Assembly (NCBI RefSeq): GCF_002105155.1 | Contig: NW_019028988.1 | Coordinates: 62,001-126,000, forward strand | DNA length: 64,000 nucleotides | Direction: 5' to 3' | From: Lobosporangium transversale | Taxonomy: Eukaryota > Mortierellomycota > Mortierellomycetes > Mortierellales > Mortierellaceae | In this document: piece after piece, positions 11,448 to 34,427 of the stretch | How positions within the stretch are numbered: the stretch's first letter is position 1 | Layout: each line of letters begins with the position of its first letter | Position numbers and translations under genes: made by a program | The notes under the pieces: model-generated | The model's input: the letters and a program-made list of their open reading frames with translations, nothing else | What the model was told of the DNA's origin: nothing | The model's database searches: none

Positions 11448-11804
11448 ATGAAGCTCTATTCTGCAATCGCTCTTGTAGCTCTTACAAGTCTGGCCTTGAC
11501 TTCTAAATCTGCACAGTCTGCTCCCCTGAACAGTTGCATGACGTGTCTCCAGAGCTCTCTCTCATCTTTATCTGACTGCAAGGGTCTTGATATCCAAATC
11601 GGTAACTTGAATCCTGGCAACAACCCTTCGGCTTTCGCAACCTGCCTCTGCTCTTCCTTGGATGCAGCCTGGGTCGATGCCTGCACTGGTGCAGAGCACT
11701 GTGATCAAGATATCCTGTCATTCAAGAACACATATAGCGAAAACATTCAAGCGGCAGGATTGTCTTGCCAACCCACACCGGTCTTTTTACCTGCAAAATT
11801 TTAA
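11448..11804 (+). CDS. small secreted cysteine-rich protein, paralogue A
   Basis: Single exon, 118 residues. An N-terminal signal peptide (about residues 1-24, ending ...SAQSA) precedes eight cysteines in the order C-x2-C-x10-C-x21-C-x-C-x10-C-x5-C-x21-C. A tryptophan sits six residues after the C-x-C pair (SSLDAAW). Unlike its paralogues it ends soon after the last cysteine and has no C-terminal hydrophobic tail, so it should be released from the cell. I do not recognise a named family. Function is unknown; a wall-associated or effector-like extracellular role is a guess. Its closest relative is the next gene, with which it shares CSSLD.AWVD and the GLxC ending. Confidence 0.85.
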   Translation: MKLYSAIALVALTSLALTSKSAQSAPLNSCMTCLQSSLSSLSDCKGLDIQIGNLNPGNNPSAFATCLCSSLDAAWVDACTGAEHCDQDILSFKNTYSENIQAAGLSCQPTPVFLPAKF

Positions 11805-12053
11805 ACAGCAGTGATAAAGGAAATAGCAAAGCAATAATAAATATACATGTATATATATAAAAAGAATATTGGAAATGTCCCAATGAGATTACCAAATTCA
11901 GTACCCTTCTTCCTTTATTGACTGTCGTTTTAGTACCATGGAAAAGCGTCCATTAGATGCGCTTGCCGGTGGTCTAGCGACATCAAAGTATTTATTAAGA
12001 ACTAAGCAAGATCTTCTTCTTCGACCGTTTATATCAGAATAGGTTGTAAAGCC

Positions 12054-12126
12054 AGCATAGGTGAATCGGATGAAATATTACCATTGCCCAACCAGAGTTA
12101 AAGGGCAATTAGTTAAAAAGAAGGCA
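12054..12126 (+). repeat. short dispersed repeat, copy 2
   Basis: Partner of 8230-8302. Both contain GTGAATCGGATGAAAT followed by a weaker match. Confidence 0.55.
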
Positions 12127-12487
12127 GGGGTCATAGCGCATCGTTCTCTCACCATCTTCATATTTTTCTCCACAATTTGATTACATGGTCGATATATAAA
12201 AAAGACAGCTCCTGACCTAATGCAATGATATTGGAGCTCATTTCTCCTCAAGCACAAACAAAATGATCAAATAATCAAAAACAAAGAGATGTGCTTTAAT
12301 GAAGACGGAAATGCGAATGCCTATTTTGTAACCCTTTCATGAGTTTGAGAGAAGAAAGTACATGTATATATATATTAAACACTTGCAATATGCCGCCGAT
12401 TTTGTTTGAGCTGGGCACTGTTGCACAAATAAAGAACATTGGGCAAAGGCGAAAGTGACATGTGCTGAGTAATAATAATTATAAAAT

Positions 12488-12494
12488 TATAAAA
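12488..12494 (+). promoter_or_regulatory. TATA box of cysteine-rich gene B
   Basis: TATAAAA about 180 bases before the ATG at 12672, within an AT-rich stretch. Confidence 0.5.
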
Positions 12495-12671
12495 CTTGGA
12501 TACTCTCCACTTTGTTTATACCTTTGTCATACCATGTTACTGGTGTTGGAGTAAGGATCACTAAAGTCAAGTGTTCTTCCTCATCTCCATCCTCCTCATT
12601 TTCATCTCCATCCTCATCTCCAAAACCTCATCTGTCATCACGTTTCTCCAAGACCTATTAAAAGAACAGTT

Positions 12672-13205
12672 ATGAAATTCTCAGTTGCTCTGATCATTGC
12701 ATTCGCGTTCACTGTATCCTCAGTTTCGGCACAGAATGACGGCAACAATACAGATGGAGCTATATGCACGACTTGTCTCCAGGATTCACTTCGTGCTCTT
12801 CCACTCTGTAAGGATCTCAATATCACCATGGGAAGCTTTAATCCAGGAGAATCTGTTGCTTATGCTGCATGCATGTGTTCTTCCTTGGATGGAGCATGGG
12901 TTGATCTCTGCAAGGATCCTTCAAAATGCGGTCCTGACGTCGAATCTTTCAAGGGGACATACGCCGCCACGATGGAGCAAGCTGGATTAAGATGCAATGG
13001 AACGACGCCAACTTTTATTCCTCAACCCACAGACCCTGTAGAGCCTAGCTCTGCACTTCCAACTGCCTCCGGTAGTGGGCCTTCAATGGCTTCCCCTAGT
13101 GATAAGCCATCGTCCAGCATCGTTGGCGCAATGCCTTCGACATTTTTCATGCAGCTTATGGGTGCTGTGTCAGTTGCTGTTGCTATTGGAGCCAGCTTTA
13201 TCTAG
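12672..13205 (+). CDS. GPI-type cysteine-rich surface protein, paralogue B
   Basis: Single exon, 177 residues. The signal peptide ends near residue 20 (SSVSAQ). The eight-cysteine frame is C-x2-C-x10-C-x20-C-x-C-x10-C-x5-C-x21-C, and the Trp block CSSLDGAWVDLC matches paralogue A. After the cysteine module comes a Ser/Pro/Thr-rich stalk (about residues 118-155). The hydrophobic end FFMQLMGAVSVAVAIGA looks like a GPI-attachment signal, so the mature protein is probably tethered to the membrane or wall. Two or more N-x-T/S sites are present. It is the clearest tandem duplicate of A, 870 bases away on the same strand, and A probably arose by loss of this tail or B by gaining it. Confidence 0.85.
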   Translation: MKFSVALIIAFAFTVSSVSAQNDGNNTDGAICTTCLQDSLRALPLCKDLNITMGSFNPGESVAYAACMCSSLDGAWVDLCKDPSKCGPDVESFKGTYAATMEQAGLRCNGTTPTFIPQPTDPVEPSSALPTASGSGPSMASPSDKPSSSIVGAMPSTFFMQLMGAVSVAVAIGASFI

Positions 13206-14609
13206 AGAAGGGAAATTATAGTAATAGTTTATTAAAATTACATCGGCTCTGGTCCTTTTTTACAATGATGGAGAGGAAAACATGTACATCTCAATTATAA
13301 TGCATACTTCTTGGACGCGATTCATTTCCAGGGTTCAGTCTTCGTTACATTGTTGTATACATGTGCATGTCTATTTATCTACTAGAGAAAGTCGACAAAT
13401 GTTATCTGAATAGAGAGTACTTTATCCACTTTAAATCCTTGAAAAGATATTTGTCAACGACTTTCTAGCGAGGACTCTACTACGGCAATTAATATAGGCT
13501 TGATTGGCTTGTCATTCTAACTGCCTTGTTCTTCCTACATCGTTTGCAAGTGTATGTCAAATATAAACTTTTACCTTTCAAATTAGGAATATACAGTATA
13601 GAAAAGTGCACTTGGTTGCTATAGCTGCTGGCGCAGTTGCTATACAAATGCAGCCACTGGCTGACAACTTATTATTTTAGGGTGGCTCAATCAAATATCG
13701 CTAGTAGCAGACGTGTACAACAGTGTCAAAGGGAAAGTGACTAGTCTAGCCTAGCCTGTCCATGAATCGTTAGGTGTGAGGGCATTTGAAGTTTTTGTCC
13801 TACAGCCAATTAATGTAGTTACGCTTTGCTTGGAATTTGAGACTTTGCATGGACACAACAGAGAGAAGGTGGCTGAGGACAAAGTAGTGTGCACACGCGC
13901 TTTTTATAAAGATGTATTAATCCGAAAGTCGTTACTTCAGAAGAACTTGGAGTGGATTGCTTGTTTGGAAAGGGAGGACACCTTTCCACAAGTAAGAACG
14001 CTTGAGTCCAAGATTCATTCTAGAATCAGCATGTGTATCAATGTGTACAGTATTTGAAGGCAGAGGCAGGATAGCTGTCTATTTTTATCGACATACAAAA
14101 AAACGAAGAGGAACGTGCAAAGTAAATGAAATTGTCCACAGACAGAGAGAGAATTTTTATTTGTTTCTCTTTATTCCAATTAAGCTCATGCTTCTGAGCA
14201 TTTAGCCCTCACTACACTGCCTCACTTTTCTCCCATTGTTTGTATGTCGACGGTTGGTGAAGGCTCTTTATTCGTCTACCTGTGCTCTCTTTCTTTTATT
14301 TTATGCTCTTCTTAAGACGCCGGGACTAAATTACTCTTAGCAGATCGCTCTCGATTGAACAGTAGAAAGCCGACCATGGTGCATATTTGCTTGTTGTTTT
14401 TCGTATTTAGAGTTGTTGGTGGCAAAAAAACAATGGCGTTGTTTATCTTTTGAAGAGTTCCTTCAACTATAAAAAAGAGACAAACGTCTTGCTTCTCCCA
14501 CCATCTTCAATCATCTCACGTCAACTCCACCGCTTCCTCACAGACGCCTTTCGTAAATTATACGTTCACATACACATACACACCCATACATATATAATAA
14601 CATCACACA
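13206..14609. other. intergenic region between paralogues B and C
   Basis: No convincing gene. A 93-codon open frame at 13776-14057 lacks recognisable features. A TATA box at 14468 and a CA-rich leader (ACACATACACACCCATAC) serve paralogue C. Confidence 0.65.
14468..14474 (+). promoter_or_regulatory. TATA box of cysteine-rich gene C
   Basis: TATAAAA 136-142 bases upstream of the ATG at 14610, the same spacing as in paralogue A. Confidence 0.6.
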
Positions 14610-15026
14610 ATGCGCTTCCAAAACGTCGTTGCCTCTATCCTGATCGTGGCTCTTGCCTCGTCTTCGTCCATGGTCGCTGCTCAGGCTGAAATGTCCGAAG
14701 CCTGCGGAAACTGTTTGACCAAGAGTGCCCAGAGCGTCAAGGCTTGCAACGGTTTTGATCCCAACATGGATCCCGCCAAAGCGGCTGCAGATAAGACATG
14801 CTACTGCACTATGGCCTCAAACACCGCATGGGTCGAGAAGTGTAACAGTGATTGTGGTGCAGATTTCACCAGTTTGGTCATCCAGGGTTTCAAGTACGGC
14901 AAGGATACTTACTGCAAGGGTGTCGATGTTAGCGCAAATGGTAATGCTGGATGTGCCCTCAGCGTCTCCAAGTCTGCCGGTGTTGCCATGGCTTTGGCTG
15001 GTGTCTTTGTCCAGGCTATTTTGTAA
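14610..15026 (+). CDS. GPI-type cysteine-rich surface protein, paralogue C
   Basis: Single exon, 138 residues. The signal peptide ends near residue 25 (SMVAAQ). The cysteine module is C-x2-C-x10-C-x17-C-x-C-x11-C-x3-C-x19-C, with the Trp block TAWVEKC. A ninth cysteine (NAGC) lies beyond the module. The C terminus AGVAMALAGVFVQAIL is a short hydrophobic tail preceded by small residues, suggesting a GPI anchor. It shares the x11/x19 spacing and the C-x-GVD motif after the last framework cysteine with paralogue D, and a variant (NVD) with E. These three therefore form a subgroup distinct from A and B. Function unknown. Confidence 0.85.
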   Translation: MRFQNVVASILIVALASSSSMVAAQAEMSEACGNCLTKSAQSVKACNGFDPNMDPAKAAADKTCYCTMASNTAWVEKCNSDCGADFTSLVIQGFKYGKDTYCKGVDVSANGNAGCALSVSKSAGVAMALAGVFVQAIL

Positions 15027-15131
15027 AATACATTCTAATTAATAATAAGAAATGTTCTTCGTACACCATGCCTGAACGAACCATGCTTTGGGTGCTGACT
15101 GATGGATGTGCCGAGCGATGTTATCTGACTA

Positions 15132-15153
15132 ATATCTCTTGATAAAGAGATAT
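15132..15153. repeat. hairpin, 9-bp stem and 4-base loop
   Basis: ATATCTCTT, loop GATA, AAGAGATAT: a perfect stem directly beside arm 2 of the dispersed repeat. The other repeat copy has a weaker but similar fold at the same place. Confidence 0.6.
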
Positions 15154-15157
15154 AGCT

Positions 15158-15237
15158 GCGCCGCATAAAAGGATATTGTTCCTGTGTAGTTCGCACATGT
15201 CTGCACCACCACTACCTCTACAACTATACCGAAGCCA
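15158..15237 (-). repeat. dispersed inverted repeat, arm 2
   Basis: Reverse complement of 9479-9555 at about 90 percent identity by eye with one small gap. The 5.6 kb between the arms includes paralogues A, B and C. Confidence 0.8.
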
Positions 15238-15410
15238 TGTATTAAATGTTTTAGCTGTCATTTGGGTAGTACAGGAGCATTTGTCTTTATTTCAGCAGAT
15301 GCCACATGAGGCTAATGACAAGTACATACAAAGAGATGGAAACGAAGAGATCGATGAGTATATAAGGAAGTCCATATATGGGGGAGAGAGCACTCTGATC
15401 AAGACGATCG

Positions 15411-15441
<31 letters not shown>

Positions 15442-15954
15442 ACAAGAAAAAGCGGCGCATTCTTTTTCACAACACAACAGGGCCGGAAATGTCTTTTTTT
15501 TTTTTTTTTTTTTTTGGCAGAACCAAGTTGATAGTAGGAAATAATTGCCTTATCACTAGTTCTTTTCTTATCTTTTTTTTTTTTTTTTTTTTTTGTCTGT
15601 TTTGATGGGCTGAAAGAGTTATCCGTAATGTATGGGTGATGCGCCTTTAGGAAAGACATCCTTAAAGACATTAGAAATGGTAAAGAAAAAAATTGGACAG
15701 AGGAGCCCAGGATGATTTGCACCGCCCAACCATGCCTAAGTCCTTTCTAACTCTAAATACAATCAAAACTAAGAAATGAACCATGGAATGCAGGCCACAT
15801 AAATGTTCGCCGTCCTCCACTCCCCTTCCTTTTCAGATCTTTTACTTCAATCTTCAACCTTTTTTCCCCTTCTTTTAATCATTTTGTAGTAGATCCTGTC
15901 AACCAAGTACGTCGCATTTTTTTTTTTTTTTTTAGATATCATTTGAAATCGTTC

Positions 15955-16401
15955 ATGCGTTATCAGTCCTTTTTCACGTCAATACTTGTCCTTGTCGCTG
16001 CTGTCGTCAATGCCCAAATGAACCCTGCTATCCCCTCACAAGCCTGTAACGACTGCATCAATTCCAATATTCGTTCACTCTCCCCTTGTTCCACGATTGA
16101 ATACAGTGGCAACTATGCAGTTCCAAGTACACTGGATGCGGAAAGCAAAAAATGTGCCTGTGTTCAGGCATCGACAACCTCATGGATCACCTCTTGTCAA
16201 GGCGAGAGTAAATGTTCTAGTTCCTTTGTCCAAACCATTTTGCAGTCTTATGAGGTGGTGAAACCAAAGATCTGTGAAGGCGTTGATATCAATTCGTTAA
16301 ACAATCCCAGTAATACGGCACATTTATCTACTACTCCTTTTAATATAGCTAGAGCCACTGCCCTTGGGGTCACTGTGGTGGCCATTGGCCAAGTGCTGTA
16401 A
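15955..16401 (+). CDS. GPI-type cysteine-rich surface protein, paralogue D
   Basis: Single exon, 148 residues from the ATG at 15955. The signal peptide is MRYQSFFTSILVLVAAVVNA. The module is C-x2-C-x10-C-x21-C-x-C-x11-C-x5-C-x19-C, with the Trp block TTSWITSC and EGVDI after the last cysteine. The end ARATALGVTVVAIGQVL is hydrophobic and suits GPI attachment. A T-run followed by AG lies 20 bases upstream and could be a 5'-UTR intron acceptor, but no coding upstream exon is needed. No clear TATA box is visible, unlike A, B, C and E. Confidence 0.83.
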   Translation: MRYQSFFTSILVLVAAVVNAQMNPAIPSQACNDCINSNIRSLSPCSTIEYSGNYAVPSTLDAESKKCACVQASTTSWITSCQGESKCSSSFVQTILQSYEVVKPKICEGVDINSLNNPSNTAHLSTTPFNIARATALGVTVVAIGQVL

Positions 16402-16566
16402 AGTATAAATAGTAATAACAATAATAATATACCCCATTCAAGGCAGAAATGATGTTTCTATTCTTATTGCTATTTCAGCTTTTTTTTTCTTTTCTTTTCT
16501 TTTTTTTTTTTCTTGATTCTTCTAGTTCTATATCACTATGTAATAAATCATTCACATTCACATTCA

Positions 16567-16669
<103 letters not shown>

Positions 16670-17357
16670 TTTTCTTTCAAAAATACAACTTATTTTAATC
16701 GAAGAAAAAAAGGGTACTGTATCTTGAGGCTTGAGGCTTGGTTTCATACGAATTGTAGGGAAAATATATTTGATTGAACATGTTACATGTAAATAGCGCT
16801 AGGGTGTCAAGTTCTCAAGGAGTGTTAGTATGGTCTGACATGTTCTGTGGAGACCAGAAGGACAATTACAGCAATAGGTACAGTAGCGACAATAGCAACA
16901 GCGGTGCCAACGCCCGAATTTTACAAATGAAAACAAGCCAAACAATGCATTCACCTTAAACCCCCTATCCGCTTCCAGAGTTGCTATACTTCTTCTTGGT
17001 ATTATGGCGACTCGGATGATGGTTTAAGAGAGTAATTCATTTTTTATCTCCATGTCCGTGGATGTCAGATAGTTACTTTCTTCAATTCAATAAAAGTGTT
17101 CTCGGTTGAACTATACGCATATGGTTTAGGTCAAATGTATAAAGGAACAGTCAGCAATATGGGCTCTCTACTTTCTGCTTTGACGCGCAACGATGTCATT
17201 TTTTTTTTCTGGATCTGAACAAACACTTAGGAACTGTTTGTGCAACGTATATTATCTATGATGCTGTTAAACCGGCCGATCGGAAGCCATGCCCCTTTCA
17301 TGTGTTTATGGAAGAAAGTGAAATCATAATGATGGCCTTTAGGATTGGCGTTGAAGG

Positions 17358-17364
17358 TATAAAA
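17358..17364 (+). promoter_or_regulatory. TATA box of cysteine-rich gene E
   Basis: TATAAAA 77-83 bases upstream of the ATG at 17441. Confidence 0.55.
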
Positions 17365-17440
17365 AGATGCCTTGAGCAAGGTCTAAACCAAGCCTTTAAT
17401 TTTCTTGTTTAACATATTTTATCCTTTTCTAAACTTCAGC

Positions 17441-17899
17441 ATGCATCTCCGATCCCTGTTCATTTCAGCAACTGTAGCAGGCATTACAGCTGCACAGTCA
17501 GCACCATCCGCACTACCACCGTCGCCTATGTCCCCAGCGCCTACAAGTACCCCAGCGCCAGGCGCCCACAATAAGGAATGTGCAGAATGTCTTCGGAAGA
17601 ATATCCAGTCAATCTCCAACTGCGCGAGCTATAGTGAGGTACCTGGATCCAATGCGACAGATTCAGGGGCTAAGAGATGTTTTTGTGCATTAGCATCATC
17701 CTTTCATTGGCTGACATCATGCCAGAACGACCAGAGTGGATGCCCAGCAGCGTATGTAGAGCTTAGTATGGATGCGTATAATAAGACCAAGGGAGCGATG
17801 TGCGCGAATGTTGACATGGAGGGTGCAGGAAGAACAGTCATTACTTCAAGTTTTGCGGTGGTATTAGTTTTTGTTACAACCTTAATTGTAATTATGTAA
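17441..17899 (+). CDS. GPI-type cysteine-rich surface protein, paralogue E
   Basis: Single exon, 152 residues from the ATG at 17441. An in-frame extension upstream has no ATG. The signal peptide ends near residue 19 (GITAAQS) and is followed by a Pro/Ser/Ala-rich spacer (about residues 20-45) not seen in the other paralogues. The module is C-x2-C-x10-C-x18-C-x-C-x11-C-x6-C-x19-C with Trp block SFHWLTSC. The hydrophobic end VVLVFVTTLIVIM suggests a GPI anchor. A polyadenylation-type AATAAA lies at 17935-17940. It is the last member of the tandem block; the next gene is the unrelated AMMECR1. Confidence 0.84.
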   Translation: MHLRSLFISATVAGITAAQSAPSALPPSPMSPAPTSTPAPGAHNKECAECLRKNIQSISNCASYSEVPGSNATDSGAKRCFCALASSFHWLTSCQNDQSGCPAAYVELSMDAYNKTKGAMCANVDMEGAGRTVITSSFAVVLVFVTTLIVIM

Positions 17900-18132
17900 T
17901 TTTGTAATTAAAGCATTCAATTATCGAGCTATTCAATAAAAGAAAAAGCAGTCCTATCCTTTTCTTTTTTCCGCCCATTTGGGCTTTGCCACTGTTCTTT
18001 CTTTCTTTTTTTTTTTTTTTTTTTTTCTTTGTCTCTTCCCTTCTCTTCCCTACTCCTTCTTTCATACCTGGATAACTTACATACCAACATCACTCCCGAA
18101 ACATACTCAGCCTTATCTGAACCAACTCTGTC

Positions 18133-19563
<1,431 letters not shown>

Positions 19564-19942
19564 TCAAACAGGATGATGATTCAGGATGTTTCTCCTCCCA
19601 TCATTCTTTCTTTTCATTCTTTTTTTTTTTTTTCTTATATTTCCTTTTTAATAGACTCAAACATCCCGTCCCTGTCTTACATTCATTTTTAGTCTGAATG
19701 AATGAATAACCAGAAAAGATAATTGTGGATGTTTATACTCCCAATAATTGAGGATACGCTGCATGAGCATGCTTCTAATTGAAGAGGCAAGGCCACAAAG
19801 ATCTAGAAGCCGTTGTATCCTTTTAAATAAAACTATGATTTAGCATTTAGGACGCGTCGCACAGTCACAACTTTGTTTTTTAAAAAAAAGGAAAGCTTTA
19901 ACATTCTTTACTTCCTCCTTACATTTCAACGAATTGTCTACA
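19564..19942. other. intergenic spacer AMMECR1-ANAPC15
   Basis: 379 bases between co-directional genes. It contains a T-run near 19619-19632 and a palindromic TGAATGAATGAAT stretch. No separate gene. Confidence 0.7.
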
Positions 19943-20108
19943 ATGTCGTCCCGTTACCCACCTCAAAGTAGAATGCCAACTTTGGTGCCACAGAGAACAG
20001 AGAGGTTATGGTACCCTCGACAGAATGGAGTTGAGCACATGCAAGATGAATTACAACAAGAAGAACTGGCCTATCAACGTTTGGTTAGGGCACATTTACA
20101 AAATTAAA

Positions 20109-20146
<38 letters not shown>

Positions 20147-21013
20147 TGAGGTGTAAAAGAACTAGGATCATTTTTACTTTTTCTTTTTTCTTTCTTATTT
20201 GTTAGCAAAAAAGTATACAGAAATCAGGAACGCATTTCATACCTCCAGGCTTATCAAAACCATTTGTGGTAATGGAATGGGTTTTTATTGAATTGTGTTG
20301 TATTGTTTTATTTTTTAACTTTTGTACAAGACATCATCCTGATCATTTCTCTTTCTCTCTTTCTCTCTTTCTCTTCATCTCTCTCTCTCTCTAATTTGAT
20401 CTATTAGGACCTTGAGGAAGAGCAGGAGGAAGATGAGGAGGAGGAGGAAGAAGAAGAGGAAGAAGAAGAGGAAGAAGGGATAGAGTATGAGGAAGCACTT
20501 GATGGATATGACAATGGCGATGGCTACGGTGATGGCTATGGTGATAGTGATAGTGCATTGATACAAGATTTGGATCAGACTCTAGACAATGAGGATTTCC
20601 AGGACTTGGATCTGGACCTAGACCTTGATAACCTGGATATGGATATGGATATGGACTTGGGGCTTAATCATGAGCATCTTCAAGTGGATTATCTTAGAGA
20701 ACCTATATCGCCGTCTATGATATCGACAAGAGTAACAAGAGCAACAGAAGCAATGGCAACAGGATCAGCATTACCGTCAGTATCAGCAACAGTGCAGTCC
20801 CCAAATTCCCCATTTCCTTTAACATCCTTTGCGGACGAGTTGGATCAAGATATCTTGGACATTTTAGACGACCAAAGTGAAGCCGAACAAGAGGATTCTG
20901 ATCAAGCAGCCATGATGTTGATGATGGATCGTGATCTGGATGCTGAGGTAGAGGAAGCGGACCTTTATGCAACTGATAGTGATCTTGAACATCAGAAAGA
21001 TTCATCATTATAA
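19943..21013 (+). CDS. ANAPC15: anaphase-promoting complex subunit 15-like protein (APC15/Mnd2)
   Basis: Three exons, 19943-20083, 20206-20268 and 20408-21013, all phase 0, encode 269 residues. The N terminus matches the APC15 signature in order: LVPQRTERLWYPR, a Gln/Glu-rich helix (ELQQEELAYQRL), then SIQKSGTHFIPPG. After these comes a run of acidic residues (about 69-92). APC15/Mnd2 sits on the APC/C ubiquitin ligase and governs Cdc20 turnover in the mitotic checkpoint; the acidic tail is a family trait. Human APC15 is about 121 residues, so this protein is roughly twice as long, with an extra Asp/Leu-rich and Met-rich tail. Exon 2 is only 21 codons, so automated annotation may miss it. The short conserved region limits certainty. 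Confidence 0.85.
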
Positions 21014-21205
21014 ATACACCATAATATATATATATATATTTTTTAAAAAAAAAGTAAAATAATAAAACATGCCTTCTCTGCGACCTCTTTCTCCCTTTCT
21101 TTCTTTTTTTTTTATTTTATTTTTTTTATTGTAACATCTTTATTTTTGTGTTTCTTTGTAAGGTTGCTAATAGACAAAGGCGAAGGGGGTTTTTTTAATG
21201 TTGTT

Positions 21206-22453
21206 CTATCCTCTAATGGTGATTGGCTTCTCGGGTAACAAACGATTGCTCCTGCTAGTCTTGTCAACATGATCCAAACCAATAAAGTCTCCAGATACAA
21301 TTTCCGCTTCGCTCAATATGTCATCTAAATGCAGCAATAGCGAACATAAAAATAAAAGTTGAGTATTAAGCTTATATAAATACATGCATTTTTTTTTTCT
21401 TTTTTTACAAGGCATACGATGCTCATGAAGTTGTTAAAGCTTACCGTCGTTCAATACATTAAGCTTGCCACCCTGATATAAAACAAACTTGATCTTGGCA
21501 AAGTCCTTCTCATTCATGCCCAATCGTGCCCGCATACGCACTTTCATCTCTGCAAAAGGTTCGTTCTGGAAGGAAGGAAAAAAAAAAAAAAGTTAATAAG
21601 CAAAGAAAAATGAGAGATAAACTGCACAGATATGAGAAAAGCGAAAAAAGTGTTTTACCTCCTTGATAACCATCCGGAATGGGATGCCGTGTGTTCGTGT
21701 AATATCATTGTGGAAGTGGGTACATGGAATGATAACATCTTCTTCCTTGCGGTCAAGCTCCGATACTGGAACTTCCTCCACATAAATTGACAATGAATCG
21801 TGGACGCTGCTAATTGGGTCCATAACCCCATATTCTTTGATCAAATTGCCATTAAACACTGCAAACATACGAAGCTTCTTGCTTCCTTCTGGCGCCAGTT
21901 TGATCTTAGGTAACAATGCATCCACAACCGCACTCATGGTACTGGTCTTTAGCAATAATAGCTCATGGGTCGACTGGTCGCTCAGGGCGGGGCCAAGCCA
22001 TGTGACCTTAATCAACCGTTTGCTCTCCAGTTCTACAATGCTGATGCTCAATTTCTCATAATAAATCACACTCAATCTTCCTACTCCAGCACCATTCATT
22101 CCAGCAAGCGCCTGTGGATTATGCAATTGTTGATGGTGATGATGTTGGATATATCCGGGAGCCAACATTTCCTGTAGCTGCATATTCGGTATACGCTTGA
22201 TAATTGCCTTTGGAAGGCCACTGGGTGCGCCTGCAGATGTAAATTGAATATGTAATGGATCTGTTCCTAATTTTTCCGCAAGTTTGGACGCTACTTGATC
22301 ATATGTGCTCTTCTTGCTAAGCTCAATAGAGTATGTCTTCAATGAGGGATCTTCAGTATTCTTTGGCTTGAAATCCACCACAATTCGGTTGCAAAGATAT
22401 TCATAGTAACTCGGAATAAGCGGCTTTGCATTCGAAGCTGTGAGCTCGGATAT

Positions 22454-22491
<38 letters not shown>

Positions 22492-22540
22492 AAAGAAAGG
22501 AAGGACGAATGAGCCAATTTCTGTAATTCCAAAATAAAAC

Positions 22541-22571
<31 letters not shown>

Positions 22572-24693
22572 CCAGCAAAATTTAACATACTGCCTTGGTG
22601 TCAATTCTTCTTGGAAAACAATAATATCACCTCCCTGAATCTCGCTGTGTTGAAATGATGACTTCATCTTCATTGGCTCAATCATAGTGGGTTTGATTTC
22701 CTAGATATGGAAAGGACGTTAGAGGTTATGTGAGCAAAAAGATTTTCATCATAACAAAAAGTCGTTAAAACTATGAGCAAAGAAGCTGCTATATAGCAGT
22801 TTTTTTTTTTTTTTTTTTTTTTTTGTTTTGCTTTGTTTGTTTTTACCTCAAAGAGTAGCAATTTTGTACCAGGCGCAAAGCCCTTTTTTTCATTGAGAAT
22901 ACCCACAATGTCGCCAACCCTGTTGGCCTTTTGAACATAAATTCTTCCTACTCCCTCCAGTTTGGAGGTGTATGGATCGTAAAACTTTGTAAAGATCATG
23001 ATAGTACCACTGGCACCCTCGTTTGGGGTGGGAAGCGTCTTCGCACCTCCGGGACTATCCGCAAATTCGACATAGCATTTCAGATCCGCCTGAGTACGCG
23101 TTCCATATCTTTCCTTGATTACATCCATTGCTTAGAGCATGAAAAATAAGTTGTTTTTTTGTCAGTGTTTAAGGCACGTCACAAAAAACAAAAAAAAAAA
23201 AAAAATAAAATAAAAAAAAAAATGGAGTTTGCAGTTTCGACTTACTCAAGTTCAAATCCGTATCTGGGATAGGGGTGTCCGTGCGAACAGTATCATTCTG
23301 ACGCTTTACTAGAGTCCAAATTCGAATCTGGTCCTCCGTCAATCCATAGGTATTAGCGACAACTTCCTTGAACTTGGCAAACGTGTCCTGCTTCCTGACT
23401 TTGATCAGCTTACCAGCTGTAGGATTTAATGGGTTAAAGAGATCAAATCCATCATGTTGCTTCACATCTGCTTCCGAGATCACTCGGGCATTGTAAAACA
23501 ACATCGATTCTTCTCGGTCTTTACGTCTGTTTTCCAATGCAATTCGTTCATCATCCAGCCGGCGCTGCAGATGTTCAGGAATATCAGCAGCAGTCAATGG
23601 TTTTAATATTTCATCCATGGCATTGTCCTGAATATAGACCAACATGTAAGCGTTCGTGAAACGTTTGTGTCTATTCATCTGCCGCATTGCCAGTGTCATG
23701 CTCGCCAGATTCTCTAAAGGCTCTCCTCCTCCATAGTTCTCGTCCAACACTTCTTTCATAGTCGCTATCGTCACACGGTCGTCATCAAAGCGATACCACT
23801 TGCCGTCGCGCTCGGGTTTGAGAAGCGCAAAGTAATGGCCTCCATGCAAATCTCCAGAGTGAACCAGTACACTATATGCATTAAGGACAACAATAGCAAT
23901 GAAAAAAAAAAAAAAATCAATATTTGACGAGGAAAAAAAATAGTGAATCATAAGCTTTTTTTTTTTACTCTTGTTGTTGTTAGTCATACCCATGTAATGT
24001 GTATTTGAATCCATCGGGTCCAGCCTTTTGCTTTTCCTCACTGTCCTCGACAAAAGGAGCTAGATCGATATTAAGCGGGAACTCGTGTCGGTCATTGATC
24101 TTAACCATCGCATCCCGTTCAATATCGTACTCGAAGCGTTTCAATTGAAGATGAAGGACTGGCGGCAAGGTCTCAAAGATCACTCCCTTCTTTGCATCCT
24201 GAAGCCCATGACCTTCTGCCATGTACTTGTTGTCACCATCAAGAGTCTCAACGTCAATATAATTGGCAAACGAATCATACAGCGTTTTGCACCCCTTAAC
24301 ATTGAGCTGAATATCTATGATATAGTAGAGCAGGATATACAGGATATTTCAATATAGCGAATAAGTAAGCAGGTTCGCTCCAACAAATGTCTGATAAAAA
24401 AAATAAAATAAAATAAAATAAAATAAAATAAAATAAAAAAAAGAAAGTGAAATTCCGTCATTCTTCTATACCATAAAAGTTCTCAACTCTAGACGATTCG
24501 TATTCGACATTGATACATTTGATGTAGCTCTTCATCCTGCCAACGAATAATTTCTGAATAGCGCCTTCAGCCGCTGTGCCCTAAAAAAGGAAAAAAAAAG
24601 ATTTTCATTAGTCATCGTTCATCGTAGGCGGTCATCCATTGAATCATATACAATGATAATGCGTCATACAGAGCATTGGCAAATTGTATCTGT

Positions 24694-24728
<35 letters not shown>

Positions 24729-26612
24729 AATGGCATGTGTGTCTATCATTATACCTTCATCTTGCCCTCCAAATTATCTTGCAGGACACGATTAAATTCC
24801 TGGACATCATGCTGCATAAAGCTCTCTAACGAGTTCCATCCAAATGATTTTGTCAGCTCTGTGGTCCCGACAGAGTTATTGCTTGTTGCTAACTGATAGA
24901 AAACACGTTGAAGGGCTAATGATACGGACTTGGAAGGTTCATCTTCTGCTGTGGGGATGTTGAAGACAGCTTTGCGGAAATAATTGGTGAAGAACAAGGA
25001 CTGAAGAAGCGAGTTCATATAGCAGGTTGCTCCTTGGTTTTTGAGACCCACATATCCCGTCATCACCTTGGAATCATAGTCTATAAAATTGTGCCAGAGC
25101 ACTCCTGTTGGATCGTTATACACTCGTACATAAGCCGTGATTACAGTATGACCCTTGTCAAGCAGTGGCAGTCCTCGGTGATCAAGTGGAGTTTCCAGCT
25201 TTTTGATCTCTGTAAAGCGAGTGAATCCCCAATCAGCTTCCTCAATCGTGAACCGGTGCTGAGCATCTAGAAAAAGGGAGAAAAAAAAAAAAAAAAAAGA
25301 TGAGATGGCTTGCTTTTAACAAGAATGTTTTTTTTTTTTTTTTTTTTTTTTTTTTTGGAATCAAACCGCAGTCCAAAGTAATAAGACACTCTTCCTCCTA
25401 TGTTTTTGCTCCCTTACTATTTGCAATGTAGACTGTTGGATTATGTGGGTTGGACATCAAAAGTGCAAACTGAGCGCAGACATGCCAGTGAGGATCAGTC
25501 TGGTCCCTGGGTTCCGCAGAGTCCAGATAGAGAGCTACACTTTCAGGTGCATTGTTGCCTTGAGGAAAGAGGAGAATGCGCCTGAATAACAGTTGGTTGA
25601 TCAGAAATAACAACAACCAAAAAGATTAAAAAAAAACTTGATTAGCAATTTTTCATCTGTGGGCAAAAGGAGATGTGACAAGTTGACAACCTTTACGATT
25701 GATGATGAGGCAGATTGTGAATATGAATATAAAAGACAACAGAATATCATCATCGTCATCATCGTCATCATCAAGAAGAAAGGTTTTTTTGATGCAATTT
25801 ACCATTTGTATCCTCCAATCTCAAACTCAGGCCCTGTCACTCGCTTGTCCAGAGCTTTCCAATCGGTAATATGCCATTGGAACATCCCACATGCACGTTC
25901 TTCAAGGTCCGGATGAGTAGGGATCAATGTCTTGGTCATCCATTCCACTAAAGGGAGTCGCGAGTCAACAGTAAGGGGAAAATACAGAAATATATGAGTG
26001 ATCCTTTTTTTTTTTACTAGTGGCTTTCTGATTCAGTTGCCGCACGCAAAAGAACAAAAAAAAAAACTTTAAAGATATATGGATCATATGCATACGCATC
26101 CTTCACGTTACCATCATCGACCGAATGATATTCCTGAACAGCTGGTTTTTCTTCTATGGGTGACGCACGCTTCGGTCTGGTGTTGGGATGTCCTTCCTAT
26201 AAAAAAAGTGGTTTCATGGAACATGTTTGAATGACGCCATTGAGCAAATTTGTAATGTGGTACCTGAAATCGCCCGCTCATGCACCATTTTCTTATTAAT
26301 GTTCCGATGGGGAGATAATCACGTCTCCACATGGATGGATGCATACTTTTTTTTTTTTTTTTTTTCTTTTTTTTTTTTTTGCACGATGCACATATTGTGA
26401 ACGCAATGTATTTAACGTTGATTTTAAACACATTCATGAAATAAATAAAAAAAATTTATAGACAAGAGCGGAACGTGTGAGTGATAGGACAGTATTGACA
26501 TCAGAACGTACCATATTGCGGGGGAGATATTGATAGGCGAATACGAAGAGGCAGAGGAGGACAAGGACTTGAGGACTGAGGTAGGCAAAGACGAGGTGGA
26601 GTAGGGCGTCAA
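21206..26612 (-). CDS. USP7: USP7/Ubp15-type ubiquitin carboxyl-terminal hydrolase
   Basis: Fourteen exons (minus strand, 5' to 3'): 26612-26512, 26345-26264, 26196-26112, 25947-25803, 25581-25418, 25266-24755, 24580-24472, 24314-23990, 23871-23246, 23130-22847, 22700-22591, 22454-21659, 21565-21445, 21324-21206. Phases agree throughout and total 1,192 residues. Layout: MATH/TRAF domain (about 70-200, with FQWHITDW and WRILLFPQG), USP catalytic core, then C-terminal ubiquitin-like repeats and the family-typical ending [10 protein letters not shown]...EKPITIRG. The catalytic triad is intact: Cys274 in NQGATCYMN, His520 in GDLHGGHY, Asp537 in RFDDD. It removes ubiquitin from many nuclear and peroxisomal substrates; Ubp15 is the yeast form. 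The start is the least certain part: in-frame ATGs also occur in exon 2. Several introns carry 20-30 base A or T runs right at splice sites. Confidence 0.93.
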
Positions 26613-27199
26613 TGATGGATAGATTTGTATTGAGTTATTGAGTCTTTTTATTTTTTATTTTTTTTTTTCTTTTGTTGAATGTTAGATAAAGTTGGTGATA
26701 TAGTTGGTTATTGTTGATGGTAATAGTCAAAGTGGATTGTAATAGAAGTAGCGATGATGGTTGTAGTGAAGAAGTGAGAGAAGTAGAGAAGAGAAGTAAT
26801 AGGGTGTGAAGTGAATATCAAACGTGAGGTTCTCTATTTTATTTTATTTTGGCGGCAGAAACAAAAAAGGGTTTGAAAGAAAAGAAGAGAAGAGTGAGGA
26901 AAAGAAGAGCCGACCGAGCACCCTTTTATCAAAATCAGTCCAAAAGTCCTCGCGTTGTTTTGTTCGCATGTTCGCACGCACACCTTGGCACATCCAGCAC
27001 ACTGACACACAGACAGTAAAAAAAAAAGTGGAAGAAAGAGATTTACATTTACGTGTTCTGTGCCAAGGCATCCTGCGTCGTATCACCTGACGAATAATCG
27101 ACTGCTTTTTTTTTTTTTTTTAGTGACGCTCCATCTCTCTTGAAGTAAGCTCTTTACTTTGCTTTTTTTTTTTTTTTTTTTTTTTTTTGTTGTTTGGCA
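26613..27199. other. divergent promoter region, USP7 / WD40 gene
   Basis: 587 bases between two divergent starts. AT-rich with T-runs (27104-27121, 27162-27188) just before the plus-strand ATG. No gene seen. Confidence 0.7.
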
Positions 27200-29605
27200 A
27201 TGTCAGCAACAAGCGCTGCTGGACATCAGTCCCACCAGCCTTCATCCTCATCCTCTCAACAGGTCGACCCCGCCATCGAGAAACTCGTTCGTGAAACCAA
27301 ATCGCTCAAGCAAAAGATCGACCTTCTTGAAGCAGAAAATAAAGCACTCAAAAAATCACTTTTCGAGTTGTCCTATATCTACTCCTCACAGTTAGGACAA
27401 GAAAAGGCCCATTGCTGTCAGGATATACAGAAGTGCCATCGTTATAGTAATAATCATACCCATCACCAACAGCAGCAACCACAACAATATGGACATAATA
27501 ATCATCATACATCAGCAACAGCAACAGCAACAACGGACGAAGGAGATTCATCAGGAAATAATAGTATAACAGGAAAGGGTACAAGCGCCAATCCAAGTTC
27601 AGGTCAGAGCACAGTTGGCTTTCAGAATGATATGGCTCAGCTTTTGGATCAACTCCTCTCAAATATGACGATTACACAACAAAATCAAAACAAAGTCGAT
27701 GCAGGAACAACCAATCCTATCAGTAGCTCCGATCCTACCCTACGAAATGTAGAAACACAATTCAAGAATGCAGCAGATCTGATCAAGGCAGAAGAGGACA
27801 ACGTGCGGCGGCTGAATATGGGCAATATCGGTAAAGCAAAACAAAGCAAAGCAGGGCAAGAAGAAAATGAAGTTGAAAGAAGAAGAAAAAAATGTCGTCC
27901 AGGTTTCAAAAAAAAAGAGGCGAAAAGGATTAATTTACACCTTCTTTTTTCCTTTATTTAAATTTATTCCACAGTGTCGAGACAAGATGGATCTTCAAAA
28001 TCAGATGGACGACAATTCTACTTGAAAAACGACTTGAAGGGTCATCAAGGAGCTGTCTATGCTGTACAATACTCTCCTAATGGCAAATTCCTCGCTACCG
28101 GCTCGTTTGATAAGACTGTGAGGATTTGGGATGGCACAACGAATCAAAATGAGTTGTATGTTCTCAAGGGGCATGGACTCAATATATCGGATTTGGCATG
28201 GGGATATGATTCTACTGTTCTGCTTTCAGCTGCCTATGATAAGACCTGCAGGCTCTGGGAAGTCGAATCAGGAAAACTTTTGGATAATTTTGACCACGAT
28301 GGCTTTGTACAGTGTGTACGATTTCATCCGCAAAGTAGGCTAAAATATTTTATGATCATTATTACTATTCAAGGGAAAAAGAAAAAAAAAAAAATGCTTC
28401 TCCAAGGACAAGGATTGCAGATGGTTCTATAGCATCATTGCTAGAATTAATGCTCTCCTTACAAAAAAATTTAAAAATATATAGATAACAATATCTTCTT
28501 CAGTGGAACAACACGCAACCTATTAAGCATGATTGACATAAGGAGAGACAATAGTGGCGCACCTGCTACGGCGATCAAGAACGACACAATGGTCAACTCA
28601 ATGTAATTTTGCATACTAAAGTACTCGAAGTTTCTTTTGTCAACAATAGTCTTCAAAAAAATATCCGCAGCTTAACGAATTCCTCTTGGATGATTTGAAA
28701 CAAACAAATAATAGCTATGTATACCATGACGGTCTGACCGTCATATCCGGAGATTCTTCCGGATATCTGAAAACTTGGGACATCAGGATGGGTCGAGTAT
28801 TGCAATCCATTTTGAACGAGCCCACAAAAAAACCTATTTCTCATATTGCAGTCTCAAAGCAGCGTGGAACTTTGGATGGCATTGATAGCGTTGAGAATGA
28901 AGAGCCGGAATCCCGCTGGCTCGCTGTGAATAGCTATGACAATGGTAGAGCATGATTTCCGATTACAGACGGATTTTTTTTTTCTTCCTTTAGTTCAGAA
29001 ATGCTTATATATATGTTTTAAATACGCTTTTATATATATTTTCAGTAATTCGAGTTTATGATAGGGGATTCGAGCCACCAACGACAATACCACGTCTCAT
29101 CCATTCACTGAAGGGCTACAGGAATAAACATTGGCCTATCAAAAGCGCCTTTTTCCATGGACAAGAATGTACGCCGCTTACTTTTAGTGTGTATTTATGA
29201 GTTCCAGATTATCTAATTCATCTTATTGACGCACTTTTTTTTTTTTTTTTTTTTTTTTTCCTGCTTGTTTCATGTGTGATGCTGACAGATATTGCTGGTG
29301 CGGCGACTAGACGGCCAGGAAAAGTGCGAGGTGCTGACGGAGATGAAGAGCCCCAGTCGATTCTTTCAGACAAAGATATGCCTCTAGAGTCTAGTCTATT
29401 GCTTGCTTCAGGAAGCATGGACCCATACGTGTATCTGTTTGATGTTAGTGCAGGGGATGGACAATATGAACTACTTCAAAAGCTGCCTGGACATACGGAT
29501 CGGGTGTATGATGTGGACTTTCATCCGATTGATCATGTTCTCGCCTCAGGATCCGCAGATTTCACCGTTAAAGTTTGGGGTCGTGCCTCAAAGAGGAAGA
29601 AATAA
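27200..29605 (+). CDS. coiled-coil and WD40-repeat protein
   Basis: Six exons, 27200-27902, 27975-28334, 28485-28602, 28715-28944, 29046-29168 and 29289-29605, encode 616 residues with consistent phases. Residues about 25-70 form a leucine-rich coiled coil (KLVRETKSLKQKIDLLEAEN). A low-complexity His/Gln/Asn/Ser region and a basic KAKQSKAGQEENEVERRRKK stretch follow. From about residue 247 there are WD40 blades: LKGHQGAVYAVQYSPNG, TVRIWD, LKGHGLNISDLAW, GYLKTWDIR, and finally LPGHTDRVYDVDFHP...FTVKVWG. I count about seven, enough for a propeller. WD40 propellers are scaffolds; the coiled coil suggests self-association. I cannot assign an orthologue. The exon 3-4 junction was chosen at 28714/28715 because the nearer acceptor gives a frameshift and stop. 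Confidence 0.88.
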
Positions 29606-29735
29606 TCGTAGGAAGAAGAGCTCCATAAAGTCTTTTTTTTTTTTTTTTTTTTTGACAGTAAAATAGAAGATGGCTGCTTTGAACCATGTTGATTGTCTTT
29701 ATTTTATTTTTTATTTGTCATTTATTTATTTGCTT

Positions 29736-30510
29736 CTACAGCTTTCCGAGGCGAACAGCACCATCAATGCGAACGATTTCACCGTTCATCATTGGGTTCT
29801 CGATAATAGCACAAGCCAGGTGTGCAAATTCACTGGGCTTACCCGCACGGTAAGGATGAATCATGTGTTTTTCCAACACGGATTGCTTGATTGAGTTGCC
29901 CATAGGCGTGCTAAAGACCCCTGGGGCAATGGTGCAGACACGGACATAGCCTGCCAAGTCACGGGCCATGGGTAGAGTCATGCCAGCAACACCACCTTTG
30001 GAGGCAGAGTAAGCGGTTTGACCAGATTGTCTGAAGAAAAGACAAAAGAAAAAGGTCAATCGCAGTATTTTATTTGTCAGTTTGAATTTCAAACTGACAG
30101 TTTCAAAGAAAATAACTTTTTTTTACGTCTTGGATTTTTCTATTATTGTTACGTACCCTTCTGTATAAGCAATTGATGCGACATTAATGATGATACCAGG
30201 GTCCTCTAACGAAAGAAAGAAAGAAAAAAAAGTTTGTTGCTATTCGCGTTGCCACTGCCGATACATATTGAAATTGAGTAGAATGAACCTACCATCTTTC
30301 TCAGTCTGCTCTTTAACGTTAGCAACAATATGTGCAGCAATCAATCTGCAAACGTTGAATGTGCCAATCAAGTTGATCCTAATGACTTCCTCAAAGATAT
30401 TCAATGACTGTGGTTCTCCATTTCTGAACACGATCTAAGAGAACATTAAAAAAGAAAAAAGAAGTAGAAGGGCAATAGTATATGAATATATCGTGTGAAC
30501 AAAGTTGCAA

Positions 30511-30543
<33 letters not shown>

Positions 30544-31059
30544 GCTTTGTTTTTAGCTTTTTGTTTTTGCTTCACCTTTTGAGCCATGCCTATGCCTCCA
30601 CAGTTAATAACGCCCGAGAGATTGCCAAATTTTTGTACACCCTTTTCGATCGAAGACAAGACTGAATCCTCACTGGCAACGTCAGTTGCACCAGGCCAGA
30701 GGACGGTATCCGGGTATTCTGCAGCAATGGCCTCCCCACGCTCCTCATTGATGTCGAAAATCACAACCTTGCCGCCCTTTGCTACTATAGCGCGAACTGT
30801 CGCCTCACCTTGTTTGGAAGAATAAAAAAATGGTGAGCCGAGCTGTATAAATTAAACAGTTGACAAAGTGGAGGAAAATAACTGCCATACCAAGCCCGGA
30901 GCTACCGCCAGTAACAACAAATGCTTTCCCCTGGATATGCCTTAATTATTCAAAGCAAGCCTGAGCATTAGTATGTTTATTACTTTTGTCGTTTGGAGTT
31001 GAATTTTACATTATATTTTTTATTTTATTTTAATTTCACTGGTTTGTTTCCACCTACAT
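29736..31059 (-). CDS. HSD17B10: HSD17B10-like short-chain dehydrogenase (start codon split by intron)
   Basis: Six coding exons: 31059-31058 (only AT), 30940-30891, 30808-30576, 30434-30293, 30205-30157 and 30030-29736, total 256 residues. HSD17B10 enzymes are about 260 residues. Motifs: cofactor site TGGSSGLG (residues 10-17), NCGG, INVASIA with the catalytic Ser, YSASK with Tyr and Lys, then APGVFSTP and ENPMMNGEIVRIDGA, all in the order seen in type-2 3-hydroxyacyl-CoA dehydrogenase. That enzyme oxidises 2-methyl-3-hydroxybutyryl-CoA and related substrates in mitochondria. The start is unusual: no ATG precedes HIQGKAFVVTGG in frame, but AT at the end of an upstream exon joins G at 30940 after removal of 30941-31057, making ATG. 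The donor GTAGGT and acceptor TTAAG are canonical. Its 3' end converges on the WD40 gene, 130 bases apart. Confidence 0.9.
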
Positions 31060-32043
31060 TGTTTTGAATGTATAAAAAAAGTGAGCGCGTGAAGATTGAT
31101 GGAGAGAGTGTACAAAGAATAAAAGAAGAAGAAAAAAAAAAAAAAAAAAAAAAAAAAAGAATGAAAGCTAATGTTTAATGTAGATGGTGAACCGGGGGCT
31201 ATGACCCTGTGTGCTGTCAAAGTAAACGGTATTTAGGAGGATCGGGCTTGAATATGGTTTGCACAACACGAGTCTCACCAAAGTTCAAGACGCGACGAAA
31301 GTGAGTCGATCAGAAACACCCTGTTGCAAGAAACCAAGGATCATGATATCAACAATCATCATCTGAGGCCCTTTTCTAAACCTCTCCTCTCCCGCATGTT
31401 TTTTTCTTGAAGCCGCGCTTAACACTCTTGAGCAGATTTCTCTAGGGACTGTTATACTTTCAACTTTTTCTTTGTTTCTCTTTAGGACAAGGATTCATTT
31501 TATAAAGATATAATTTACAAGTGCAGGCCTACTGTTTTTTCTATGCACGACTTGAGCCTTGCTTGATCGCTAACTTGGAATTAACAGCTTCATGTAACAA
31601 GCAACTTTACGTGATAGACACCCTGTTTGATATCATGTCCAACTACAGGGTATTCACCCCATGGTAATTACCGCAAAGCTTCTCACGTTTATGCATAGAG
31701 ATAGAGTTTCCTCGGCGGAAGGGATACGGCCATGGTTCACCCTGGCTAGTCCTTAAATATTACGGATTGGAGGACATGGCGAGTGCTTTGAAGGAGTCCA
31801 TAGTCTCAATAGCTTGAGAGAGAATCGATTGCCAGTCACCCACACACGGGGACAAAGGGGAAGAAGTGAGTCAAGATGTATTTGTTTTAATGAACTCAGA
31901 CAATATCTTCAAACACCCACAAGCTACTTCACCCGCAGTTGCTCATCCTCCCTTTTCCTTTCCTTCTTCCTTACTCACCTTTTCTGCATTTCCTATACCT
32001 CAACTCTCTTTCTTCATCTCCCCCCTCTGTCAACTGTATAATC
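31060..32043. other. divergent promoter region, dehydrogenase / HIS5
   Basis: 984 bases with no gene seen. Contains a 26-base A-run (31133-31158), a Gcn4-type site (31867-31873) and a pyrimidine-rich leader before HIS5. Confidence 0.7.
31867..31873 (+). promoter_or_regulatory. Gcn4/CPC1-type response element TGAGTCA
   Basis: Perfect TGAGTCA, 171-177 bases upstream of the HIS5 ATG. In fungi bZIP factors of the Gcn4/CpcA class bind TGA(C/G)TCA to induce amino-acid biosynthesis on starvation. Position and target gene both fit. Confidence 0.65.
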
Positions 32044-33450
32044 ATGGCTGCATCATCTCAGTTCTCTATCAAATCCATTGTTCGTCCTAATATCTTGGCC
32101 CTAAAGCCATATCGTTGTGCTCGAGATGACTATTCCATGGGTGTACTTCTCGATGCCAACGAAAATGCTTATGGCCCCGCGTTGAACCCTCTTTCAGATG
32201 CAGCAGTTACCAGTTCTGGACTTGATATCAATCGTTATCCTGACCCACACCAGCATGATCTTAAGAATTTGATCGCCAAATTCAGGAATATCCCCAATGC
32301 CACTCCCGAGAACTTCTTTTTGGGTGTTGGTAGCGATGAAGTGATTGATATGGTCTTCCGGGTCTTTTGTGTCCCTGGCAAAGATGCAGTCCTAATCACT
32401 CCTCCGACCTATGGCATGTACTCTGTCTGTGCGCAGATCAACGATGTGGAGGTTCACAAGGCCACTCTAACCCTTGATGGGCGGTTTCAATTGAACGTTG
32501 AGGAGGTACTATTTTGTTGTCATAATGATCTTATTTACGGATTTTATTTTAGTTAAATCAATTAAAGAGTGAAATCGTAGCTATTTCAAACTGATTTTTT
32601 TTTTTTTTTTTTTTTTTTTCAACATTCTCTAGATCGAAAAACAGGTCGAGGCTCACCCTAATATCAAGGCTATTTTCTTGTGCAGCCCAGGAAACCCAAC
32701 TGGATCAGCATTGACACACGAGAGTATTCGTCGGGTCCTAACCTTGCCTAATTATAAGGGTGTCGTTGTTGTGGATGAGGCATATGTGGATTTCATTGAT
32801 GCCAACAAAGAAGGCACCACAGCTACCTGGGTTAATGATTATCCCAATTTGATTGTGATGCAGACCATGAGCAAGAGTTTTGGACTTGCAGGAGTTCGGT
32901 ATGTTTATTTTTTTAGAAAAAAAAAAAATGCTTTGAGATGATAAAGTTTATTTACTGTCTTTTTTTTATTTTTATTTTTTATTATTATTATTAATTGACA
33001 ACCTCCAGCCTGGGAGTTGCGATCACTACACCCGAAATAGCTCACTACATGAATGCTACAAAGGCACCCTACAACATCGCTAGTACGACCTCACGAGTAG
33101 CTCAGGAAGCTCTTCAGCCTAAAGCATTAGAAATCCTTCGTCAGAACATTGCAGTCATGGTTCAGGAACGCACTCGACTGTTGGAGGCATTCAAGTCTAT
33201 CTCAGGACTGGGTCGTGTTTTAGGTACCAACGATGCCAACTTTGTGTTAGTAGAGGTGTTGGACAAGGATGGCAAACCCTGTAATGAGCGTGCCCACCAT
33301 ATCTATACGGACATGGCCAAAAACCAGGGACTGGTTGTTCGATTCAGAGGCACAGAGATTGGATGTGAAGGATGTTTGCGCATCACTGTCGGTACACCTG
33401 AGGAGAATGATGTAGTCATCAAGAGGTTGACGGAACAACTTTCTGCATAG
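32044..33450 (+). CDS. HIS5: histidinol-phosphate aminotransferase
   Basis: Three exons, 32044-32505, 32633-32898 and 33009-33450, encode 389 residues, the usual length for His5/HisC. It is a fold-type I PLP enzyme converting imidazole-acetol phosphate plus glutamate to histidinol phosphate in histidine synthesis. Seen: LDANENAYGP near the N terminus, RYPDP, LGVGSDEVID, SPGNPTGS, VVDEAYVDF, the PLP-lysine block QTMSKSFGLAGVR (Lys before SFGLAG) and a C-terminal FRG...CLRITVGTPEEN. Exon joins fall at phase 0 and phase 2 and restore VRLGVAI across the second intron. Intron 1 ends in a long T-run before CTCTAG. A Gcn4-type site upstream suggests general amino-acid control. Confidence 0.97.
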
Positions 33451-33914
33451 AAACAACACACCAATGTGTTTATTTCACGAAAAAAAAAAAAAAAAAAAAA
33501 AAAGCAATATAGATCTTTCATTGAAATCAATATGTAAAAGTAAAAAAGAATGAGCCCCATATAGTCTTAATCATGTTCCCACTATTGCATTAATTATAAT
33601 GATTTTTTAAAAAAAAAAAAAAAAAAAAAAAATACCGTGTGTAAGGAAATACAAGAGGGAAGAGGCGTCTATGGTCGCGTTGCAAAGATGGCATTGATGA
33701 ATTGTCAATAAAAATAGGGGGAGGCTCTCGTTGGAGGCAGGGTGGAATAGGACTTTTAATTTTTCCCCTGATGCATTCCGCACAAAAAACTGCCACGTTG
33801 ACTCCTGGACTTCTTCTTCCTTTCCTTTCTTTCTCCTTCCCCCTTCCAATTTCCTTTGGGCACCAACCACCATCCGCATCATTATCCTTATCATATCATC
33901 TCTTCTTTCCCACC
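33451..33914. other. intergenic HIS5 - paralogue F
   Basis: 464 bases. Two A-runs (33481-33503, 33609-33631), then a CTTTCC/TTCCTT pyrimidine leader typical of the cysteine-rich family genes. No gene seen. Confidence 0.7.
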
Positions 33915-34427
33915 ATGACCCGCTCTTTACGCATACTCTTCATAATTGTACCATTGATCCTTGTTGTGTTATCGACTACTGACCGAGTCTCGGCTCAATT
34001 CGATATCTCCATTCCCTGCAACGACTGCTTGGAGAAACAAATTGTGACTCTTCCTTCTTGCGCAGGTGTCAACCTGTCAAACCTTTCAGACTATTCGAAT
34101 CCTCAATATAGGACCTGTCTCTGCGAGTCAACCTTTGATTACAGTTGGCTACAGCCATGCTCCACCAGTTGTCAGCCCAAGGAGCTTACGGATTTTCAGA
34201 CGAATTTCCCCGAGTTAATTAAGACCACATTCAACCTGACCTGCGTCAAACCCACACCCTCGTCTTCATCCTCTCCTTCACCTTCACCCACATCGAGCCT
34301 TGCACCCAACAGTGCTGTAGGACATCAACTACGATGGGGTTGGGGTAATCTAGATTCGAAGATGATCTTGGGATGGATTATAGTATTGATTTCATCCACT
34401 GCATTAACTATGGTGTCTAGTCTTTAG
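33915..34427 (+). CDS. GPI-type cysteine-rich surface protein, paralogue F (dispersed copy)
   Basis: Single exon, 170 residues from the ATG at 33915 (context CCACCATGA). The signal peptide is about residues 1-27 (ending RVSAQ). The module is C-x2-C-x10-C-x18-C-x-C-x11-C-x3-C-x23-C, with Trp block DYSWLQPC. A Ser/Pro stalk (SSSSSPSPSPTSS) follows, then a hydrophobic C terminus (MILGWIIVLISSTALTMV) consistent with a GPI signal. It has the same framework as the five genes at 11-18 kb but lies 16 kb away between HIS5 and an unrelated gene. It therefore represents an older or transposed duplicate. Function unknown. Confidence 0.84.
   Translation: MTRSLRILFIIVPLILVVLSTTDRVSAQFDISIPCNDCLEKQIVTLPSCAGVNLSNLSDYSNPQYRTCLCESTFDYSWLQPCSTSCQPKELTDFQTNFPELIKTTFNLTCVKPTPSSSSSPSPSPTSSLAPNSAVGHQLRWGWGNLDSKMILGWIIVLISSTALTMVSSL

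Follow-up and report, generated by a model that had tools for sequence, protein, structure and literature searches.

An eight-cysteine family of apparently extracellular proteins in Lobosporangium transversale and its resemblance to CFEM proteins

Among described fungal surface proteins, those with which the present ones can best be compared carry a CFEM domain, as do Ccw14/Ssr1 and the Candida proteins Csa2, Rbt5 and Pga7. CFEM domains are described as occurring mainly in glycosylphosphatidylinositol (GPI)-anchored wall proteins (PMC8867779), as found among Ascomycota and Basidiomycota (64 species) but not among the Zygomycota, Chytridiomycota and Microsporidia surveyed (36 species; PMC4530338), and as conforming to the motif PxC[A/G]x2Cx8-12Cx1-3[x/T]Dx2-5CxCx9-14Cx3-4Cx15-16 (PMC8867779, PMC4530338). 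Here, we analyzed a window of 64 kb (bases 62001-126000 of contig C2 in the 42.7-Mb genome of Lobosporangium transversale; gene coordinates are those of the window), which holds six genes, A to F, for small cysteine-rich proteins. We consider it likely that they belong to an extracellular protein family of Mortierellaceae, built on one predicted helical eight-cysteine module that would be stapled by disulfides and, in most members, tethered by GPI.

The cysteine framework of genes A to F

All six open reading frames (ORFs) were present without interruption, and each carried a framework of eight cysteines and a Trp, the latter placed 6 to 7 intervening residues past the second Cys of a C-x-C pair. 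Across six frames of the 64 kb the framework occurred six times, every time in genes A to F, and its count was 0 in trinucleotide-block shuffles of the window (n = 100). The genes are listed below with the gaps between their successive cysteines.

Gene A, 11448..11804, plus strand: 118 residues, hydrophobic N terminus, eight-Cys module at 11535-11768, end 11 residues past the last Cys (free type); gaps 2,10,21,1,10,5,21.
Gene B, 12672..13205, plus strand: 177 residues, eight-Cys module at 12765-12995, Ser/Pro/Thr-rich stalk, hydrophobic C-terminal tail resembling a GPI signal; gaps 2,10,20,1,10,5,21.
Gene C, 14610..15026, plus strand: 138 residues, module at 14703-14915, hydrophobic tail; gaps 2,10,17,1,11,3,19.
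Gene D, 15955..16401, plus strand: 148 residues, module at 16045-16275, hydrophobic tail, database protein P0001; gaps 2,10,21,1,11,5,19.
Gene E, 17441..17899, plus strand: 152 residues, Pro/Ser-rich linker followed by the module at 17579-17803, hydrophobic tail; gaps 2,10,18,1,11,6,19.
Gene F, 33915..34427, plus strand: 170 residues, module at 34017-34244, Ser/Pro stalk, hydrophobic tail, database protein P0002; gaps 2,10,18,1,11,3,23.

A preliminary description of this DNA had proposed six genes with this strict spacing and hydrophobic C-terminal tails on all of them except A. Both points stand, since proteins B to F continue for 31-69 residues after the last Cys and end in hydrophobic stretches (13-residue Kyte-Doolittle maximum, 2.1-3.2); signal peptides and GPI anchors are putative, being predicted here from hydropathy and layout. 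Its coordinates also hold, with a sole correction in gene F, whose start is most likely 33915 rather than the first ATG at 33771, from which the ORF is open, because database protein P0002 begins at the Met at 33915.

Relatives, predicted fold, and free and tethered types

A profile of the six proteins retrieved 39 database proteins, 4 encoded by the window and 35 others, of which 33 carried organism names and 2 did not (P0034 and P0037, the latter short at its start). Another profile, built from C, D, E, F and the paralogue H described below, returned four proteins when the best 7993 candidates were scored, the one new protein from outside this genome being P0041 of Entomortierella lignicola, a relative of F. 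Thus, the further proteins total 36, and the 34 with names all come from genera that NCBI places in Mortierellaceae. Together with eight proteins of L. transversale (A to F and the paralogues G and H), they gave the set of 44 modules used below.

Two architectures were found in this set. In 19 modules the chain stops 9-17 residues past the last Cys, with no tail, and in the other 25 it runs on for another 31-76 residues and terminates in a hydrophobic stretch (13-residue maximum, 2.1-3.2). In a tree that is unrooted and does not give the order of the free and tethered types, the 19 tail-less proteins (A and 18 others) formed one side of a branch with a support of 96/94 (94% of 200 bootstrap trees), a grouping that was compared with a shuffled mean of 14.6 changes. 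The preliminary description had suggested that A lost its anchor or never had one. Because all tail-less proteins fall on a single side of a supported branch, gene A is a member of an old tail-less lineage that includes proteins of other Mortierellaceae, and its lack of an anchor is not a recent loss.

The A- and B-types are also the conserved part of the family. In each of four other species an A-type and a B-type bear locus tags that follow directly on each other (BGZ83_011427/8, BGZ51_005008/9, EMPS_09006/7 and BG015_005996/7), and those of other species are 45-60% identical to B across Mortierellaceae genera. Both types share the stretch CLCSSLdGaWiD, a Di..fK..Y stretch, and PT(F) after C8. 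These residues bear on the possibility that the proteins are structural wall glycoproteins without a specific ligand, in which the module would act as a stable spacer. The tails and the Ser/Pro stalks of B and F do resemble those of wall proteins as far as their sequences go, but A and G lack tails, and the conservation of non-Cys residues in the A- and B-types (CLCSSLdGaWiD, and PTF after C8) is not what a mere spacer would suggest; we regard this explanation as possible though doubtful.

AlphaFold2 modelling was performed for full-length B (33 sequences) and for the C module (22 sequences). The B model showed module helices at 27-41, 62-70, 75-80 and 87-103; its predicted local distance difference test score (pLDDT) was ~90 over most of the module but dropped to 72 in the C3-C4 loop, and the protein ends were uncertain. 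The C model had a mean pLDDT of 88.5 and helices at 5-16, 34-45, 48-51, 54-57 and 59-76. In both models, the first module helix holds C1 and C2, the second holds C-x-C and a short one the Trp, and C8 lies past the last long helix. The same predicted helix order in the diverged proteins B and C suggests that the family likely has one fold. Structure searches with the models, run without a positive control, gave no credible match to a solved structure, and neither did a sequence search of the PDB, which misses even true CFEM.

Some points weigh against a single family fold and a range confined to Mortierellaceae. The B and C models were compared by helix order only, and the B model was built on alignment A4, in which the last Cys of C, D, E and H is misplaced. 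The taxonomic range depends on searches that require shared 5-residue words. In addition, C and E were absent among the proteins returned by either profile although both were in the query alignments; public gene models may therefore lack C (14610-15026) and E (17441-17899).

Comparison with the CFEM domain

The family and CFEM are alike in several respects. Both consist of small proteins with secretion-type N termini and many GPI-type tails, and in all 44 modules the cysteines follow the CFEM succession C C C CxC C C C, the C-x-C pair being formed by the fourth and the fifth. The B and C models are helical, as is Csa2, which is described as a helical-basket fold (4Y7S; PMC13030711). Furthermore, 8 of 10 members sourced from UniRef bear database names that start with 'Extracellular membrane', one of which can be read as far as '...protein CF'. 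The cysteine order and these names favor the view that the proteins are diverged true homologues of the CFEM proteins of Dikarya, with a longer C3-C4 loop, serving in ligand (possibly heme) capture or in wall structure, all the more so as CFEM domains are said to reside mainly in GPI-anchored wall proteins (PMC8867779).

The differences argue against this view. The Pfam CFEM model (PF05730) matched none of 33 scanned members at E ≤ 10, whereas a yeast Ccw14 probe used as a positive control gave an E value of 1.7e-12, in line with the earlier statement that no named family fits. A six-frame PF05730 search of the genome also gave 0 matches, but it lacked a positive control, since all 14 control genomes likewise failed to reach the cut-off. 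Measured against the published motif, gaps 2, 4 and 5 fall inside it in all 44 modules and gap 6 in 14 of 44, but gaps 1, 3 and 7 fall outside in 44 of 44: the family has C-x2-C where CFEM has C-x3-C, a C3-C4 distance of 16-22 versus 5-10, and a C7-C8 distance of 19-23 versus 15-16. The family has a conserved Trp and, unlike CFEM, no conserved heme-ligand Asp, an Asp 2-5 residues before C4 being found in just 14 of 44 modules and at a varying distance (2, 3 or 5).

Similarity beyond the cysteines was also assessed by profile comparison. With hhalign at default settings, the match to a CFEM profile, which comprised 38 Ccw14-type proteins only, was 0.2-0.3%, with a score of 10.4 against a median of 11.0 for permutations that kept only the cysteines in place, 40 of 60 of which reached at least 10.0. 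Without compositional correction the match rose to 51% (E = 1.5e-4) across C1-C7, a point in favor of homology; its score of 25.3 was reached by 7 of 100 such permutations. No clear profile similarity past the cysteines was seen. Since neither the Pfam model, nor the motif, nor the Asp matched, the proteins do not qualify as CFEM by these three measures. Judged by sequence, the family appears to resemble CFEM mainly through cysteine order and cannot be filed as CFEM, and the view that its members are diverged CFEM proteins seems unlikely to us; the family may be an older relative or a convergent eight-cysteine design.

Paralogues, divergence and proposed working

Searching the genome with each single protein A to H, which yields lower bounds, revealed at least two further intact paralogues outside the window, along with broken copies. 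Paralogue G (contig C33) has 112 residues and no tail, and H, with 152 residues, a tail, and Phe in place of the Trp of other members, lies on contigs C54 and C62. A database protein identical to H is recorded under the name Lobosporangium transversale. The two H loci are 99.7% identical across ~5.6 kb (C54:170143-175719 and its C62 counterpart; L051-L054), a further 2.7 kb being 99.0% identical in inverted order; they represent either a recent duplication or one locus assembled twice. The ~5.6-kb unit also holds a 106-residue ORF beside H without a Pfam match. Near 898 kb on C62 are three degenerate H-like stretches, two with in-frame stops and the third in another frame than the first. A relative of the 106-residue ORF adjoins these copies (C62:897695-898731; L047-L049), where the same upstream ORF start occurs in both orientations inside ~1.5 kb, as an inverted duplication. 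Weak matches on C34 (E = 0.31, stops inside) and C53 (E = 0.26) lacked the cysteine pattern and were dropped as members.

In the tree, the end branches of D, E and H are very long, and a long inner branch parts C, D, E and H from the rest; by sequence, these four are far more diverged than other members, with E still matching D at an E value of 1.2e-11. Searches of the protein database with both profiles, of limited sensitivity, found no orthologue of C, D or E in other species. Birth and death, proposed earlier for the whole family, is thus borne out for the fast branch only, given the H twin, the broken H-like copies and the missing C/D/E orthologues. Together with the long branches, these features would fit diversifying selection on a family of effector or recognition proteins, an effector role having been suggested before. 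However, the A- and B-types are kept across Mortierellaceae genera and carry consecutive tags in four species, unlike what an arms race would lead one to expect of effectors, and the hydrophobic tail after 25 of 44 modules suits surface display more than release. The effector reading is improbable for the family as a whole: little speaks for it in A and B, and it is possible for C, D, E and H, because of their strong divergence and gene death.

Under the reading we prefer, a tethered extracellular family, an N-terminal signal would direct the proteins to the endoplasmic reticulum, and the eight cysteines would presumably pair to give each module four disulfides. To judge by their layout, B, C, D, E, F and H would be GPI-anchored and so expose the module at the membrane or wall, raised on a Ser/Pro stalk in B and F, and A and G would be released. 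The adjoining, conserved genes for free A and tethered B suggest joint action at the cell surface, perhaps as in the CFEM relay of Rbt5 and Pga7 in Candida albicans, where related extracellular modules of differing attachment likewise work in one species (PMC4183699). Heme binding there requires the conserved Asp (PMC4183699); the module of the present family, which has no conserved heme-ligand Asp, might by analogy with CFEM proteins bind a putative small ligand or wall partner. A bolder proposal, which we hold to be very unlikely, is that the family is an early-diverging CFEM homologue with a fold older than Dikarya, and that in Mortierellaceae the conserved neighbors A (free) and B (tethered) make up an extracellular relay of two parts, capturing a ligand for which the CFEM Asp is not needed.

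The window also contains other sequence: a long simple repeat between D and E (16475-16747; reading as poly-Asn or poly-Leu), parts of a USP7-like ubiquitin protease on the minus strand between E and F (21593-24014; Pfam UCH, USP7_ICP0_bdg and USP7_C2), and, upstream of F and in its orientation, two class I/II aminotransferase gene pieces (32044-33450; Pfam Aminotran_1_2), which we take to be of the histidinol-phosphate type.

These data provide a domain definition, with 44 modules and two of them modelled, for Mortierellaceae proteins that are now mostly named hypothetical. The family is real, well defined and lacks a Pfam model; in kind it is ordinary, consisting of small cysteine-rich, apparently secreted fungal proteins, and it gains some interest through a possible link with the origin of CFEM.
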